Positions 44,717 through 50,304 of a stretch of 64,000 bases of DNA are shown one piece after another. The position numbers and the translations under genes were made by a program. A model generated the notes under the pieces. The model saw only the letters and a program-made list of their open reading frames with translations. It ran no database searches and was not told where the DNA came from. This DNA comes from an uncultured beta proteobacterium. GTDB lineage: Bacteria > Pseudomonadota > Gammaproteobacteria > Burkholderiales > Burkholderiaceae_C. The stretch lies in NCBI GenBank assembly GCA_903876735.1, contig CAIRAW010000014.1, forward strand, positions 124,001 through 188,000, written 5' to 3'. Position 1 is the stretch's first letter; every line of letters begins with the position of its first letter.

Positions 44717-45730
44717 ATGAAAATCATTACCCGGACCATCGGCGCGCCATTTGCCGCAATCTACGTATTCATGCTGGCTGCTTGCGGTGGTGGCGGTGGC
44801 GGCTCCACACCACCCGTGATCACCCCGTCAGCAGCACTCAACAGTTCCAACCAGACGATTGCGGCACAGGATGTGGCGTCCTCTGCGTACCTCCCCCTGA
44901 TGGGCGCACAGACCCTCACGGGCGCGCAGACCCTTGATGAAGGCGTGCTGTTCAGCCTTGCCCGCAGTCAGCTGAACCGTTTGCCAAACTACCTGGCTGC
45001 AGCCAAAGGCAATAGCACCTTGACTGGCGTCGTGCAAAGCCAAATCTATTCCTGTACTTACGGTGGAACGGTCACCGCCAGTGTTTCTGACGCCGATAAC
45101 AATGGTGTTGTTTCGGCCGGTGACAGTGTCACCGTCGCGGCAAACAACTGTGTTGAAAGTGAAGGCACTTTGACAGGCGCTCTGACCTTTGGTGTCAACA
45201 ATGTCACAGGGACGTTTGGGTCAGACAGCTACAGCGGCAGTCTCACGATGACGTTCAATGGCTTTACCGTATCGAGTTCCGAGTTCAGTGCAGGCGCAAA
45301 CGGGTCGCTGACTCTGTCTGTGAGTGCAAGCGGCGTTAACAGGGTCAGCACATCGGTTGCCACACCTTCCTTGTCGGTATCAGGCACCTATGCTGGTGTG
45401 ACACGCTCACGCAGCCTGACAAACTACAGCGCAACGAGTACCAGAACCCCCAACTCAACATCCGGCTACGAAACCAGCTACACCCTTAACGGTACTTTGA
45501 CCAGTTCTGCCTTGGCGTCGCAGGCAATTTCATTTGCCACACCAACGCCGTTCATAAGCCTGTCCTCGGACGATTACCCCTCCAGCGGGGTCATGCTGAT
45601 CAGCGGCGCCGCCAATTCCAAGCTCAAGGTCACGGCCCTTCCTGGCAGCCAGGTCAAACTGGAACTTGATGCCAACGGGGACGACGTCTACGAGGGCAGC
45701 ACCACGCTGAACTGGAACACCTTGATGTGA
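44717..45730 (+). CDS. Hypothetical beta-rich lipoprotein
   Basis: A 337-residue protein with a lipoprotein signal (FMLAAC, followed by a run of six glycines as a flexible linker). The mature part is rich in Ser, Thr, Gly and Val in alternating patterns that suggest beta structure; VSDADNNGVVSAGDSVTV and LELDANGDDVYEG look like acidic, possibly calcium-binding loops. Two cysteines (CTYGG and NNCVE) may form a disulphide. I do not recognise the family. RBS AAAGGAAGCTT. The stop overlaps the next gene's GTG start (GTGA at 45727). Confidence 0.75.
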   Translation: MKIITRTIGAPFAAIYVFMLAACGGGGGGSTPPVITPSAALNSSNQTIAAQDVASSAYLPLMGAQTLTGAQTLDEGVLFSLARSQLNRLPNYLAAAKGNSTLTGVVQSQIYSCTYGGTVTASVSDADNNGVVSAGDSVTVAANNCVESEGTLTGALTFGVNNVTGTFGSDSYSGSLTMTFNGFTVSSSEFSAGANGSLTLSVSASGVNRVSTSVATPSLSVSGTYAGVTRSRSLTNYSATSTRTPNSTSGYETSYTLNGTLTSSALASQAISFATPTPFISLSSDDYPSSGVMLISGAANSKLKVTALPGSQVKLELDANGDDVYEGSTTLNWNTLM

Positions 45731-46557
45731 CGGGAGATACCAGCCTGCAGACAAGCAGGATCAGGAGCAGCTCGCTTGGATTGCTGTTGACCGCCATTTC
45801 CATCGCCGCCACGGCCGAGTGCAATGACCGCTTGACCTCCTTGGCGCTCGCACCTGTCAGCAAGCAAAGCGACTGGAACGAGTTTGATGCCGCGGGTCGC
45901 AAGCTGGTCAATGAGTCGGGCAGGCTTAACGGTGCCGAACTTTCAATTGGCCTGAACTGCTCTGACTGGGATTTTCTGGCCCTCCTGTCTCAGTTGGACG
46001 GGCTGCGAAGCTATGACGGCCAGGCATCGAATGGCGTACCGATTGTTTCCGTTTCCGAGGTAAGGCAACGTCAAGGCCACATAGAGGCGAACTTCCGCCT
46101 CACCGATGCGTGGAGATTGGGTGGCAGACTGTCCAGCAACACGATCTGGCGCGACATGGCTTCCGCCGGCGGCGCTTCGGGCTACCCGGAGCGCTATGCC
46201 TGGACAGCAATTTCACTCGGCCTGCAGTGGGAGGCGGTGTCAGGCAGGAATCGCTTCAAGTTGGGCGCATGGTTTGGCAGACCCGTGGTGTCAACAATGG
46301 AGTTGACGCTTGCGGGCCGCGATCGGGCGACGCTGAAGTTGGGGTCCATGAATCAGGCCGAGTTCGCCGCCACCTGGCGCACCCCGCTCAGTCCATCCTG
46401 GTACGTTGAGGCAGATGTTCAATACCATCGGACGGCAATGGGCCAGGGGGAGAGTTCCGTCATTCAGCGCGGCGGCATGCCAGTCGGACTGGCGCATCAG
46501 CCAACAACCATCATGCTTGACCTGCCTGTTGCAGTCCGCCTGGCTTACGACTTTTGA
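45727..46557 (+). CDS. Hypothetical outer-membrane protein (predicted small beta-barrel)
   Basis: A 276-residue protein, GTG start overlapping the previous stop. A signal peptide (SLGLLLTAISIAATAEC) precedes a mature part with amphipathic strand patterns (RFKLGAWFGRPVVSTMELTL, WYVEADVQYHRTAMG) and a C-terminal VAVRLAYDF ending in Phe, the outer-membrane barrel signature. Family not recognised. Translational coupling to the preceding lipoprotein suggests the two act together at the outer membrane. Confidence 0.72.
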   Translation: MTGDTSLQTSRIRSSSLGLLLTAISIAATAECNDRLTSLALAPVSKQSDWNEFDAAGRKLVNESGRLNGAELSIGLNCSDWDFLALLSQLDGLRSYDGQASNGVPIVSVSEVRQRQGHIEANFRLTDAWRLGGRLSSNTIWRDMASAGGASGYPERYAWTAISLGLQWEAVSGRNRFKLGAWFGRPVVSTMELTLAGRDRATLKLGSMNQAEFAATWRTPLSPSWYVEADVQYHRTAMGQGESSVIQRGGMPVGLAHQPTTIMLDLPVAVRLAYDF

Positions 46558-46572
46558 AGCGACTTCCGTTGG

Positions 46573-47115
46573 TCAATCGAGATTCACAATGCGCACGCGC
46601 CGGTTCTGTGCGGCAAACGGCTGCTCCGGATTGGAAAGTGCGGTCGAGCCCATGCCGGCGGAGTGCAGGCGGGCTGCGTCCACCCCTTTGGATTGCAGGA
46701 AATCGGACACCGCTTGCGCCCGCTGTTCACTGAGTTTGAGGTTGTAGGCGACGGCGCCTTTGGCATCGGTATGCCCTTCGACTGCAAATTTCGAGTTCAG
46801 CAATTCAGGCGACTGCAAAGCCTGCGACAAATTAGACAGGGCTTGCTGGCTTTCGGCGCGCACATGGGCCGAATTGAAATCAAACTGAATCAGCAGCGAC
46901 AGGGACGGCCGCGCCGGCGGGACCGCAGCAGCGCCAGCCGCTGCCGGCGCGGGTGCTGCTTCGACCGTGAGATTGCGCAGGCTCCGTGTGCGGGGCGGCG
47001 CCTTGAGTTGCTCAATCATCTGCTCGGCGCTCGGTGGCGCTTGCGCCAGAGAAGGCAAGGCAGCAACAAGGCACAAAAAAAGACCGGCGATTTTGAACTT
47101 CTTGTGTGCGGTCAT
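46573..47115 (-). CDS. OmpA-domain peptidoglycan-binding protein
   Basis: A 180-residue exported protein with a signal peptide ending LPSLAQA, an Ala/Pro-rich linker, then an OmpA C-terminal-like domain (LLIQFDFNSAHVRAESQQAL, VEGHTDAKGAVAYNLKLSEQ RAQAV, NRRVRI) that binds diaminopimelate in peptidoglycan. It lies 27 bases downstream of the caspase-like gene on the same strand, forming a two-gene operon. Convergent with the barrel-protein gene. Confidence 0.9.
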   Translation of the reverse strand: MTAHKKFKIAGLFLCLVAALPSLAQAPPSAEQMIEQLKAPPRTRSLRNLTVEAAPAPAAAGAAAVPPARPSLSLLIQFDFNSAHVRAESQQALSNLSQALQSPELLNSKFAVEGHTDAKGAVAYNLKLSEQRAQAVSDFLQSKGVDAARLHSAGMGSTALSNPEQPFAAQNRRVRIVNLD

Positions 47116-47142
47116 GGTTAAGCAAGTTGGCTGAATGCCGCC

Positions 47143-49365
47143 TCAGCGGCGGAAATAGAACTCGCCAACCACCTGATCGTAGATGGCGGGCACCTGCTCA
47201 TGGCCAACTGACCTGGCCATCCCCACGACCTCATTGCGCACATTGCGCACCACCTTGTCAATGCTGAGGCCGGGTTTTTGCATCTCCTTGAGGAAGATTC
47301 GCGTGAACAGTCCGTTTCGGCTCTTGTCAGCCGGCCCGAGTTTGTCCAGTGCCTGCTGTCCGGCACCTGCAGAGAAGATCACCATCTGCCCGGTGGCCGC
47401 CGTCGTCGGCGCCAGACCGCGCCCGCTGATATTGCGATTGACGGTCTTGAACGGGTTGTCGCGGCAGGCGTCAATCATGGCCAGTGTGAACTTGGCCTTC
47501 TTTTCACTCATATCATCGAGCACCCGCTGCAACTGGATCGACTCGTCCTTGATCTGCTCTTCGCTCTCGCCAGCGATATCAACCGGCAGCAAATAATTGG
47601 CAGCCCCCAGTTGCACGCCGTGCCCGGCGAAGAAAACCAGTACCTCGTCGCCGCCTTCGACCTGGCCCTTGAAGGTGCGCAGCGCTGCCTTCATGTCCTT
47701 CTCGGTCAGGTCCAGTTTCAAGGTTACCTGATAGCCCACCTGCTGCAGGCTCTCGGCAATGGCACGCGCATCTTCTCTGGCGTTCACCAACTTGGTCACT
47801 TGCCGATAGGTGTCATTGCCGATGACAAGAGCACGTCGTGTCGCGTAAATGGTCTTTTGATCTTTGCCGACTTTCTCATCTTCGAGTTTCGCCAGTTGTT
47901 GGCGCAACTTCACCAGTTCTTCGTCGCGTTGACGTGCCGCCTGCAGCAATTCATTGCTGATGCGCTCTTGCTGCGCCCTTCGCTCCTGCTCCTTGGTCAC
48001 CAGCGCCAGGCGTTCAGTTTCCTTGTCTCTGGTTTCCTGCGCGAGTCGCGCCTGTTCTTTTGCTTTGGCGATTTCAGCCAACCGTTCAGCGTCCCGGACT
48101 TTGGCCTCCTGTGACAGCCGCTCCTGCTCTTTAACCCTTGCCACCTGCAGCACGCGTTCCCGCTCCCTGGCCTGCGCTTCCTGCACAATTCGTTGCTGTT
48201 CCTTGGCCGTGGTTTCCTGCGCGAGTCGTTCCTGTTCTTTTGCTTTGGCGATTTCGGCCAGCCGCTCCACTTCCCTGGCTTTTGCTTCCTGTGCCAGTCG
48301 TTCCCGCTCCTTGGCCTGCGCCTCCTGTGCCAGGCGCTCCGCCTCTTTGGTCTGCGCTTCGTTTGCCAGTCGCTCGCGTTCTTTGACTCGCTCATCCTCG
48401 GCCAATCTGGCTTGCTCTGCATTTGCGCTTTGACTATTGCTTTCGTCCTGCTTCTGCGCGGCGTCCACATTTGCCGCCTGCACAGGCGCATCAACGGACC
48501 CCGGTATGAAATCAGACATCACGGCCATGATGTCACCGTTTCTGGCCCTCTGGATCCACTGCTTGCTAGTACCGGTGGCCATCACGAAAACGGTATTTGT
48601 TTTGGTACTCTTGAAGAAACGTCCGCTGGTCACCGCAATTTCATAAGCACCGGCCGGCATCAAAAAAGCCTCCAGTATCTGGTCAACGAGTGCGATTTCC
48701 TTTTTATCCAACGTAACTGCAAACTCGTCCTGCTTCGAAATGTCACCCCCGAAGTCAAATTGCACAGCGCCCAGGTTCATCAGTTGTTTGGTGTTGATTT
48801 CCTTGCCAGAGAAAATACGATCCAGTGCTTCCGCACGATTATGAAAACCAAGCTGCCTGCCTTCGGCGGAGACCACGAACTGATCCAAATCACGCACGCT
48901 CTGCAAGCGGTCATCGACGCCACGGAACAATCGCCATGTCACCGGGATGCGAACCGAGGCTCCACCCCTGGCGTTGACCAGAAACTGCCCCTGCGACAGG
49001 CCAAACCCGGGGGCTGGAACAAAATGCGACAGCTCCCATTCAAATGGTGAAGTAATCACCGAGTAAGTGCCGACGCCATGCGACACCACTAGCGCGGTTT
49101 CGGATTCACTCAAGGGTCCTTTGTAGATCAATACGCCATCTGCTGGCGACACCACCGGCGCGAATGGCTCGACCAGAAAGGTGATCGACTTGTCGCCGCC
49201 GGTTGAACGCGGAATGTGGACAACACGTTGATCAGAAGCAGCTGGCAGAATCCATTGATCACGTTCAGCATCACCAGCCCACGCCGCACCCATACCCAGC
49301 AGCAACCAGGCCAGCACTGAAATCAGGCAAAGACGAACTTTTGAACTCACCCGCAAAATCCTCAT
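47143..49365 (-). CDS. Periplasmic caspase-like (metacaspase/orthocaspase) protein with coiled-coil repeats
   Basis: A 740-residue exported protein. Residues 1-30 are a signal peptide. Residues ~66-130 (FAPVVSPADGVLIYKG, ALVVSHGVGTYSVIT) resemble a degenerate LytM/M23 sheet lacking the full metal site (inference). Residues ~328-459 are eleven tandem 12-residue units of the type KERERLAQEAKA, a charged coiled coil. Residues ~507-740 are a C14 caspase domain: RRALVIGNDTYRQVTKLVNA, the catalytic His582 in VFFAGHGVQ and Cys634 in MIDACRDNPF. Such enzymes cleave after Arg or Lys. The dyad is intact, so activity is plausible. The OmpA-domain gene downstream suggests a cell-wall-linked complex. Confidence 0.88.
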   Translation of the reverse strand: MRILRVSSKVRLCLISVLAWLLLGMGAAWAGDAERDQWILPAASDQRVVHIPRSTGGDKSITFLVEPFAPVVSPADGVLIYKGPLSESETALVVSHGVGTYSVITSPFEWELSHFVPAPGFGLSQGQFLVNARGGASVRIPVTWRLFRGVDDRLQSVRDLDQFVVSAEGRQLGFHNRAEALDRIFSGKEINTKQLMNLGAVQFDFGGDISKQDEFAVTLDKKEIALVDQILEAFLMPAGAYEIAVTSGRFFKSTKTNTVFVMATGTSKQWIQRARNGDIMAVMSDFIPGSVDAPVQAANVDAAQKQDESNSQSANAEQARLAEDERVKERERLANEAQTKEAERLAQEAQAKERERLAQEAKAREVERLAEIAKAKEQERLAQETTAKEQQRIVQEAQARERERVLQVARVKEQERLSQEAKVRDAERLAEIAKAKEQARLAQETRDKETERLALVTKEQERRAQQERISNELLQAARQRDEELVKLRQQLAKLEDEKVGKDQKTIYATRRALVIGNDTYRQVTKLVNAREDARAIAESLQQVGYQVTLKLDLTEKDMKAALRTFKGQVEGGDEVLVFFAGHGVQLGAANYLLPVDIAGESEEQIKDESIQLQRVLDDMSEKKAKFTLAMIDACRDNPFKTVNRNISGRGLAPTTAATGQMVIFSAGAGQQALDKLGPADKSRNGLFTRIFLKEMQKPGLSIDKVVRNVRNEVVGMARSVGHEQVPAIYDQVVGEFYFRR
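47989..48384 (-). repeat. 36-bp tandem repeats encoding the coiled coil, with a 180-bp higher-order period
   Basis: About eleven 36-bp units encode 12-residue repeats. Units 4-5 and 9-10 are nearly identical at DNA level: GGTTTCCTGCGCGAGTCG occurs at 48031 and again at 48211, exactly 180 bp (five units) apart, indicating duplication of a block after the basic unit had diverged. Confidence 0.85.
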
Positions 49366-49440
49366 AGACGCAAGCCGGCACCATTATCCGCGACTCTCAT
49401 TCTCAACACGATAATGACCTGGCGCCTGCTATCCTAAGCC

Positions 49441-50304
49441 ATGGCCGACCCACAAACGCTGACTATTACCGCTTCCGACAGGCATACCTTCGATGCCACG
49501 CTTTACCCCACCGACGACCCGGGTAAGCCGGTTCTCATCTTTCTCTCGGCGTTGGGCACACCGGCGCGCGTCTACGGGCGACTCGGGCGCGAGATGGTTC
49601 AGCAAGGCGTGCAGCTTTGCGCGCCGGACTGGCGCGGCATTGGCAGCAGTTCGGTGCGCGCCGGACGCGCCAGCGATTTTGGCTACCAGCATCTGATCGA
49701 GTTCGACCTGGCCGCGCTGATCGCAGCCGTGCGCCAGCGCCGGCCGCACGCGCCCATCTGGTTGGGCGGCCACAGCCTGGGTGGTCAGTTGGCACTGCTG
49801 CGCGCTGCTGCGTATCCAGAAGGCATCGACGGCGTGATCATGATTGCGGCCGGCAGCGTGCACTTGCCGGCTTACAGCTGGAAGCTGCGCTTTGGAGTGG
49901 CATCGCTGGCCTTGATGTCTAGCCTCATCGGCCCGCTGCTGGGCTACTTCCCGGGTGGGCGCGTCGGTTTTGGTGGCCGCGAAGCCGCTGGCCTGATGCG
50001 CGACTGGAGCCGTGTCGCCCTCACCGGCCTATACCGCCCGGACGGCTCCGCCGTCGACTACGAAGGCGCACTGCGCACGCTCACGCTGCCAGTGCTGGCG
50101 ATCACCTTCACGGCCGATCACTGGTCTCCGGCTGCAACCGCCAAAGCCCTGCTGCGCAAGCTGCCACCCGATATACCGGTTCACTGGCACTGGGCCCCGT
50201 CGCAGACCCAGGGCGTCGCCGTCGATCACTATGTCTGGCTCAAGCAGCCCGCCCTGGTAGCCCCATCCGTCGCACAACACATAGGCCTTTTGACCGGAGT
50301 TTGA
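49441..50304 (+). CDS. Alpha/beta hydrolase
   Basis: A 287-residue alpha/beta-fold hydrolase. The nucleophile elbow is GGHSLGGQLA; a preceding PVLIFLSALGTP forms the oxyanion region, and the late VDHYVWLKQP supplies a plausible histidine. No signal peptide. The substrate is not readable. Its stop TGA (50302-50304) is 2 bases before the ATG of the next hydrolase gene, and the start faces the caspase gene across a 75-base divergent promoter region. Confidence 0.85.
   Translation: MADPQTLTITASDRHTFDATLYPTDDPGKPVLIFLSALGTPARVYGRLGREMVQQGVQLCAPDWRGIGSSSVRAGRASDFGYQHLIEFDLAALIAAVRQRRPHAPIWLGGHSLGGQLALLRAAAYPEGIDGVIMIAAGSVHLPAYSWKLRFGVASLALMSSLIGPLLGYFPGGRVGFGGREAAGLMRDWSRVALTGLYRPDGSAVDYEGALRTLTLPVLAITFTADHWSPAATAKALLRKLPPDIPVHWHWAPSQTQGVAVDHYVWLKQPALVAPSVAQHIGLLTGV

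Follow-up and report, generated by a model that had tools for sequence, protein, structure and literature searches.

Operons that combine caspase homologs with OmpA domains have been known since a 2012 survey (Asplund-Samuelsson; PMC3501461), which provides close points of comparison for the locus described here. In that survey, an OmpA domain occurs in 14 of 217 caspase operons, an operon holds at most three caspases, and operons with several caspases are found in Alphaproteobacteria, Deltaproteobacteria, Bacteroidetes, and Cyanobacteria only, with none in Betaproteobacteria. The survey also reports single N-terminal transmembrane (TM) helices of caspases that are possibly signal peptides, Sel1 and Amidase_2 domains as partners or fusions (one in Polaromonas, a betaproteobacterium), and a CHASE2-metacaspase fusion of Trichodesmium whose caspase is predicted to be cytoplasmic; localization information was missing for 529 of the 671 sequences. 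The present locus lies in a 64,000-nucleotide stretch of contig CAIRAW010000014.1 (assembly GCA_903876735.1, positions 124,001 to 188,000) from an uncultured beta proteobacterium. This whole stretch is called the window, and the locus consists of a gene for a 740-residue caspase and a gene for a 180-residue OmpA-domain protein.

Like orthocaspases and prokaryotic metacaspases, the 740-residue protein has a C14 domain, a His-Cys dyad, and acidic residues at the positions associated with basic specificity, but it differs from them in its LytM-like head, its long repeat helix, its export-type signal, and its membership in a multi-caspase cluster. An OmpA domain within a caspase operon is shared with the operons of PMC3501461, whereas the closest relative, G222, has five same-strand caspases together with OmpA, CHASE2, and Ig-like genes in an operon proposed from gene spacing. 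The Trichodesmium fusion of that survey also links a CHASE2 sensor to a caspase, but as one protein with a predicted cytoplasmic caspase, while separate genes and export-type caspases are present here. Finally, the head may share the LytM fold of EnvC, NlpD, ActS, DipM, and SpoIIQ, and its catalytic residues are lost as they are in EnvC, NlpD, and ActS, but our protein has this part at the N-terminus, in a more divergent form and joined to a caspase.

Our preferred reading, which we hold with slightly more confidence than doubt, is that the protein is a periplasmic Arg/Lys protease within a sensor-coupled envelope module, its head being a recognition part. A description of this caspase module or of a LytM-headed caspase was not found in the open-licence literature searched, part of which was covered by listing. 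A first-pass annotation of the window had called the combination in one protein unusual, which holds for the head; caspases with possible signal peptides, Sel1, or Amidase_2 and operons with OmpA already appear in the 2012 survey (PMC3501461).

The caspase and its OmpA neighbor

Both open reading frames are present as the first-pass annotation had described them, with a gap of 27 bp between them (Table 1). Pfam recognizes Peptidase_C14 with an E value of 7.4e-34 (117.9 bits against a cut-off of 21.4; positions 1-232 of the 233 in the model), and the catalytic His582 and Cys634 named by that annotation are intact and exactly placed. The nearest solved chain by sequence is the MALT1 paracaspase (E 5.8e-12), the match being confined to residues 9-137 of 240, an extent that, like the Pfam coverage, bears on whether a p10 domain is present. 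Four residues do not vary in any of the ten aligned caspase domains: the His, the Cys, the Asp two before the Cys, and the NAREDA-segment Asp. Asp632 and the NAREDA Asp align with Asp residues in MALT1, which we take to function there in basic specificity. The domain score, the dyad, and the acidic pocket fit orthocaspase-type Peptidase C14; metacaspase type I was considered as a class and was not adopted. According to PMC5756287, characterized C14 proteases other than caspases prefer or cut after basic residues and, by analogy with these members, Arg/Lys specificity is likely here.

Export, also proposed in the first-pass annotation, is suggested by a signal-peptide-like start that is detected both by hydropathy and by a simple rule. 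A looser simple rule is satisfied by all 13 caspases from the window, its own genome, and related loci, and likewise by three of ten other window proteins (one a membrane permease by eye), while the stricter hydropathy rule finds an N-terminal TM-like segment in just four of the eight caspases given to it. Both rules are simple and neither is a trained predictor. The annotated charged coil proved to be present and charged, but it is somewhat longer than the 132 residues assigned to it. Its sequence repeats every 12 residues within the span 311-500, as autocorrelation shows by peaks at 12 and 24 residues, and has no heptad pattern. In the underlying DNA, 36-bp tandem repeats occupy 48155-48385, and 48019-48360 holds a 180-bp array. 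When compared with the relative in genome G222, the ratio of nonsynonymous to synonymous substitution rates (dN/dS) is about 0.02 for the C14 domain, about 0.10 for residues 31-155, 0.14 for residues 156-300, 0.21 for the coil, and 0.17 for the OmpA gene. By this measure selection on both genes is purifying, and the low values of caspase domain and head indicate that both are constrained.

The OmpA domain occupies residues 78-167 of its protein (Pfam E 2.7e-21), whose start resembles a signal peptide and in which no lipobox is apparent by eye. Its GHTD...LSxxRA residues (G114, H115, D117, N125, L128, S129, R132, and A133) are invariant in nine of nine OmpA proteins, and we presume that they act in peptidoglycan binding. 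Judged by its sequence, the protein belongs to an OmpA-C-like peptidoglycan-binding family.

A multi-caspase module

The two genes are part of a larger set that comprises C14-DUF3108, a 181-aa lipoprotein-like protein, OmpA, CHASE2, C14-DUF4384, a 194-aa Ig-like protein, and coil-C14. CHASE2, DUF4384, and DUF3108 are Pfam names, although DUF3108 exceeds the cut-off in the G222 copy only, among the copies scanned, and the name is extended to its relatives; 'Ig-like' and 'lipoprotein' are our own readings, for which Pfam has no match. The CHASE2 protein has four TM-like segments and no Pfam output domain above the cut-off. G222 (locus L042) carries eight consecutive minus-strand module genes, five of them for caspases, in the order LytM-coil-C14, C14 (867 aa), OmpA (78% identical to that of the window), C14-DUF3108, CHASE2, C14-DUF4384, Ig-like, and NTERM_B-coil-C14. 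One flank of this cluster consists of the genes that also flank the locus in the window: an alpha/beta-hydrolase, a beta-lactamase-fold protein, and three more, which presumably encode a TRAP transporter.

In the genome of the window, which has three C14 domains in total, the module is split over two loci. Only the LytM-headed caspase and OmpA are at the window locus, whereas C14-DUF3108, CHASE2, C14-DUF4384, and Ig-like genes follow directly after murB on contig C19 (L046, 5918-11972), a placement that recurs in G224 (L077). Across related genomes, this movable cluster thus occupies different blocks, and in the genome of the window OmpA accompanies the LytM-headed caspase. Beyond the C19 half there is a CHASE2-guanylate cyclase gene (L046, 16060-18201). 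In G211, a frame of 155 aa (L044, 4896-5363) that has the DUF4384 part only lies between the lipoprotein and OmpA genes and is perhaps a caspase minus its protease part.

The neighborhood is conserved within the genus, for which 89 genomes including that of the window were compared. A caspase match at E<=0.001 is present in 20 genomes and this OmpA at E<=1e-20 in 8, of which 7 are among the 20 (hypergeometric 8e-5, uncorrected for kinship of the genomes). All eight OmpA loci adjoin module genes, and a caspase gene is on the same stretch in seven. The OmpA contig of G236 stops inside CHASE2 (reference residues 5-186), and another G236 contig with two caspases ends in the remaining part (192-541), from which we infer that the two contigs adjoin.

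Beyond the genus, a coil-C14 profile was run against 399 genomes of the family and gave 25 matches in 21 genomes at E<=1e-50; the neighborhoods of 24 were covered (G355:C117 was left out). Nine genomes, that of the window included, have matches at E<=1e-115, and in eight of these the caspase is C-terminal; the G482 protein, cut by the start of a 3.5-kb contig, has about 80 residues after the caspase. OmpA is in the stretch in five of the nine (window, G087, G350, G453, and G011), accompanied in four by C14-DUF4384 and Ig-like genes, and is absent from it in G184, G029, G037, and G482. In G087, G350, and G011 the C14-DUF4384, OmpA, and Ig-like genes show 4-bp overlaps of the kind seen in tight operons, and G037 has a weak Ig-like match beside its coil-C14 caspase. 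Among the other 15 matches, two of which are on contigs below 6 kb, G297 alone has OmpA, C14-DUF4384, lipoprotein, and Ig-like genes, and G355 has C14-DUF4384 only. Across 369 genomes sampled from the class, a coil-C14 match at E<=1e-90 occurs in the window's own genome only.

When all 16 OmpA loci are considered (the 8 of the genus, L011, G087, G350, G453, G011, G716, G687, and G297), C14-DUF4384 is in the same stretch at 12, once cut by a contig end. This count is weakened by G687, where a contig end truncates an OmpA match that is itself weak, and it is not independent because several loci were found through module genes. The first-pass annotation had cast the OmpA protein as the partner of this particular caspase. 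The proximity is not accidental, but OmpA is a gene of the whole module and is more often beside C14-DUF4384 and Ig-like genes than beside this protein.

Changing N-terminal heads

In the coil-C14 caspase, sequence comparison shows a conserved catalytic domain combined with a head that varies between NTERM_B, Sel1, and LytM-like forms. LytM-like heads are present in the window, G222, and G184, and Sel1 heads in G211 and L011 (by Pfam) and in G453 and G037 (by eye). The NTERM_B head was found by profile in G350 and G011 and weakly in L010; the profile was built from G222, G236, G087, and G716, which match it by construction. Caspase identity to the window protein is greater for the Sel1-headed G211 (90%) than for the LytM-headed G184 (85%). 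The caspase tree is poorly resolved, with 4 of 15 inner branches well supported, and head swaps are thus not countable. The LytM-like form occurs in 3 of the 89 genus genomes and in 2 of the 399 in the family sample, G222 not being among the latter matches. At L011 (2635-6415), from an Oxalobacteraceae metagenome-assembled genome, a HipA-C gene is followed by the Sel1 caspase and then by OmpA, with 83 bp between the last two.

The LytM-like head

Pfam places Peptidase_M23 on residues 58-102 with an E value of 0.014, under its cut-off, and the G184 head (L009/L047, 42% identical) reaches 0.0012, likewise under it. More sensitive evidence comes from hhalign, in which a profile of the three LytM-like heads was compared with 31 M23 domains from 16 genomes, that of the window included. 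The comparison gave a probability of 94.6% (E 6.5e-8, score 53.6), while 200 column shuffles reached a maximum score of 21.2 (none as good) and three unrelated module alignments gave probabilities of at most 0.2 against M23. Homology to M23 is therefore significant by profile comparison. Fold searches used a weak model of the 118-residue head: the first 16 Foldseek rows are M23/LytM structures, including EnvC and DipM (E 0.08-0.38), and the best VIA-align match is SpoIIQ at Z 5.1, above a background in which RNA polymerase chains reach Z 4.0. NMB0315, ShyA, and 6jn7, which are among those 16 rows, we take to be M23 proteins.

At the five M23 catalytic columns the three heads align S, D/E, S, R/E, and P, so that at most one of the five positions is left and the active signature (HxxxD, HxH, and a third catalytic His) is missing; the one His common to the three heads lies outside these columns. 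Given this loss, endopeptidase activity is not expected. The evidence supports the first-pass suggestion of a degenerate LytM/M23-like head, comparable to the degenerate LytM domains of EnvC/NlpD-type amidase activators. Matches to part of the head region in three family genomes, G023, G105, and G135, were dropped as spurious; they extend over 77-79 residues at 29% identity, with E values from 2.6e-4 to 9.9e-4. The frames in G105 and G023 encode proteins of 507 and 463 aa, respectively, in which hydrophobic stretches are numerous and which we take to resemble conjugation proteins.

Proposed function and alternatives

For location, physical complex, signal, substrates, and purpose, we propose the following. 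The protein would be a cysteine protease that acts in the periplasm, related to orthocaspases and paracaspases and with predicted cleavage after Arg or Lys, and one member of an envelope module with several exported caspases and OmpA-type, lipoprotein, Ig-like, and CHASE2 membrane sensor proteins. Its interchangeable head (NTERM_B, Sel1, or degenerate LytM) most likely recognizes or docks onto an envelope partner, and the long charged helix may act as a spacer between head and protease. The peptidoglycan-binding OmpA-type protein would tie the module to the wall, the CHASE2 protein would report an envelope or small-molecule signal, and upon that signal the caspases could cut envelope proteins or one another in a regulated remodeling or stress response. 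In the version given by the first-pass annotation, the OmpA partner would hold the caspase at the wall, where its LytM-like part might sense wall damage.

Several observations must be set against this proposal. OmpA domains are common, with 4 to 39 first-look candidates per genome, and part of the neighborhood evidence is not fully independent, having been gathered at loci to which module genes had led. G029 and G037 have a coil-C14 caspase without OmpA within 19.0 and 16.7 kb, respectively. The first-pass annotation's direct adjacency of LytM-headed caspase and OmpA exists in the window only, since one caspase gene intervenes in G222 and the OmpA module of G184 is on a different contig. An Ig-like profile matched 10 of 399 genomes in the order, and in six of them (G698, G614, G662, G665, G753, and G797) the fetched stretch has no other module gene. 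Five of these six matches are weak; that of G698 is good (2.7e-30; L090, 10774-11235, 18 kb without another module gene), which indicates that the Ig-like protein can exist apart from the module and may have a wider role. Regarding the head, AlphaFold models have a mean pLDDT of 34.8 for the whole head (277 aa), which is unusable, and of 48.2 for the 118-residue head; Foldseek with this second model gave no match at E 0.001, and a sequence search of solved structures with the head profile gave nothing at E<=10.

Other functions can be envisioned. The module might be a digestive system, extracellular or periplasmic, that degrades proteins for nutrition with heads that bind substrates or surfaces. 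The export-type N-termini would suit this role, and a survey of aquatic environments from 2016 offers the speculation that metacaspases of betaproteobacteria break down proteins outside the cell (PMC4933709). We nevertheless regard it as unlikely, given that cleavage only after basic residues, as PMC5756287 gives for characterized non-caspase C14 proteases, is narrow for digestion, and that partners such as OmpA, the lipoprotein, and CHASE2 speak for retention and for sensing. A role in amidase regulation, in which the head activates a wall amidase and the caspase tunes or removes the head by cutting, draws on EnvC, NlpD, and ActS, degenerate LytM amidase activators according to PMC8360153, and on the LytM domains of EnvC and DipM, which rank near the top when the weak model is compared with known structures. 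However, sequence identity is low, and sister caspases carry NTERM_B or Sel1 heads, so that a role common to the whole module cannot be amidase activation; we consider this explanation quite improbable.

A cell-death or anti-phage device, in which infection or damage would set off killing of the cell by its caspases, is a poor prospect in our judgment, even though there is a partial match to the PADLOC caspase model (4e-14) and the module is patchy and differently placed in related genomes. Exported caspases would not easily reach cytoplasmic targets. Moreover, in the eight module proteins scanned, the other PADLOC matches were only ZorB/MotB for the OmpA protein, attributable to its OmpA domain, and defense models were not matched beyond the caspase domain. 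A further reading is a long shot: a periplasmic caspase relay, inflammasome-like and extracytoplasmic, in which CHASE2, OmpA, and the LytM-like or Sel1 heads would sense the envelope and gather several exported caspases for mutual activation and then envelope cleavage.

For bacterial caspase homologs outside the cyanobacteria, the module offers a defined setting, namely envelope quality control or remodeling by caspase-type proteases, in that as many as five exported-type caspases occur together with a membrane sensor and a protein that would bind the wall. The varying heads, which include a dead wall enzyme, suggest where these proteases are directed, and the cluster as a whole hints that the surface of the bacterial cell is controlled by proteases of the caspase type.

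Feature coordinates and additional observations

Table 1. Features of the two-gene locus, in window coordinates
Feature	Position	Strand	Basis
Exported-type caspase, LytM-like head / coil / C14, 740 aa	47143..49365	-	
Signal-peptide-like N-terminus, residues 1-30, last residues AWA	49276..49365	-	Simple rules, no trained predictor
LytM/M23-like head, residues 35-152, catalytic positions lost	48910..49263	-	
Second head segment, residues 156-300, kept in the three LytM-headed proteins	48466..48900	-	Pfam: none
Charged 12-residue-repeat helix-like segment, residues 311-500	47866..48435	-	Autocorrelation, tandem repeats
Peptidase_C14 domain, residues 508-735, with His582 and Cys634	47161..47844	-	Pfam
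OmpA-domain protein, 180 aa, signal-peptide-like start; orthologs in caspase module	46573..47115	-	

A scan of 46400-49600 for sigma-70-like promoters gave no site, and nothing is concluded from it. When plasmids were searched with the 740-aa protein, 275 records matched, none covering 80% and all below 60% identity, and in the ten matches listed the similarity is confined to the caspase end. Convergent with the OmpA gene, 44717-46557 of the window encodes a lipoprotein-like secreted protein and a beta-barrel-like protein (both by eye), neither of which has a match at E 1e-20 in the G222 locus. Caspases also occur in other arrangements among the genomes sampled. At L074 (4850-7699) a caspase is fused to TPR repeats and a redoxin of the AhpC/TSA type, with a C-terminus that weakly resembles CsgG/LpoB, and G214, a genome of the genus (L048, L049, L050, L052, L053, and L070), shows a strong expansion, with 12 caspase matches on several contigs.

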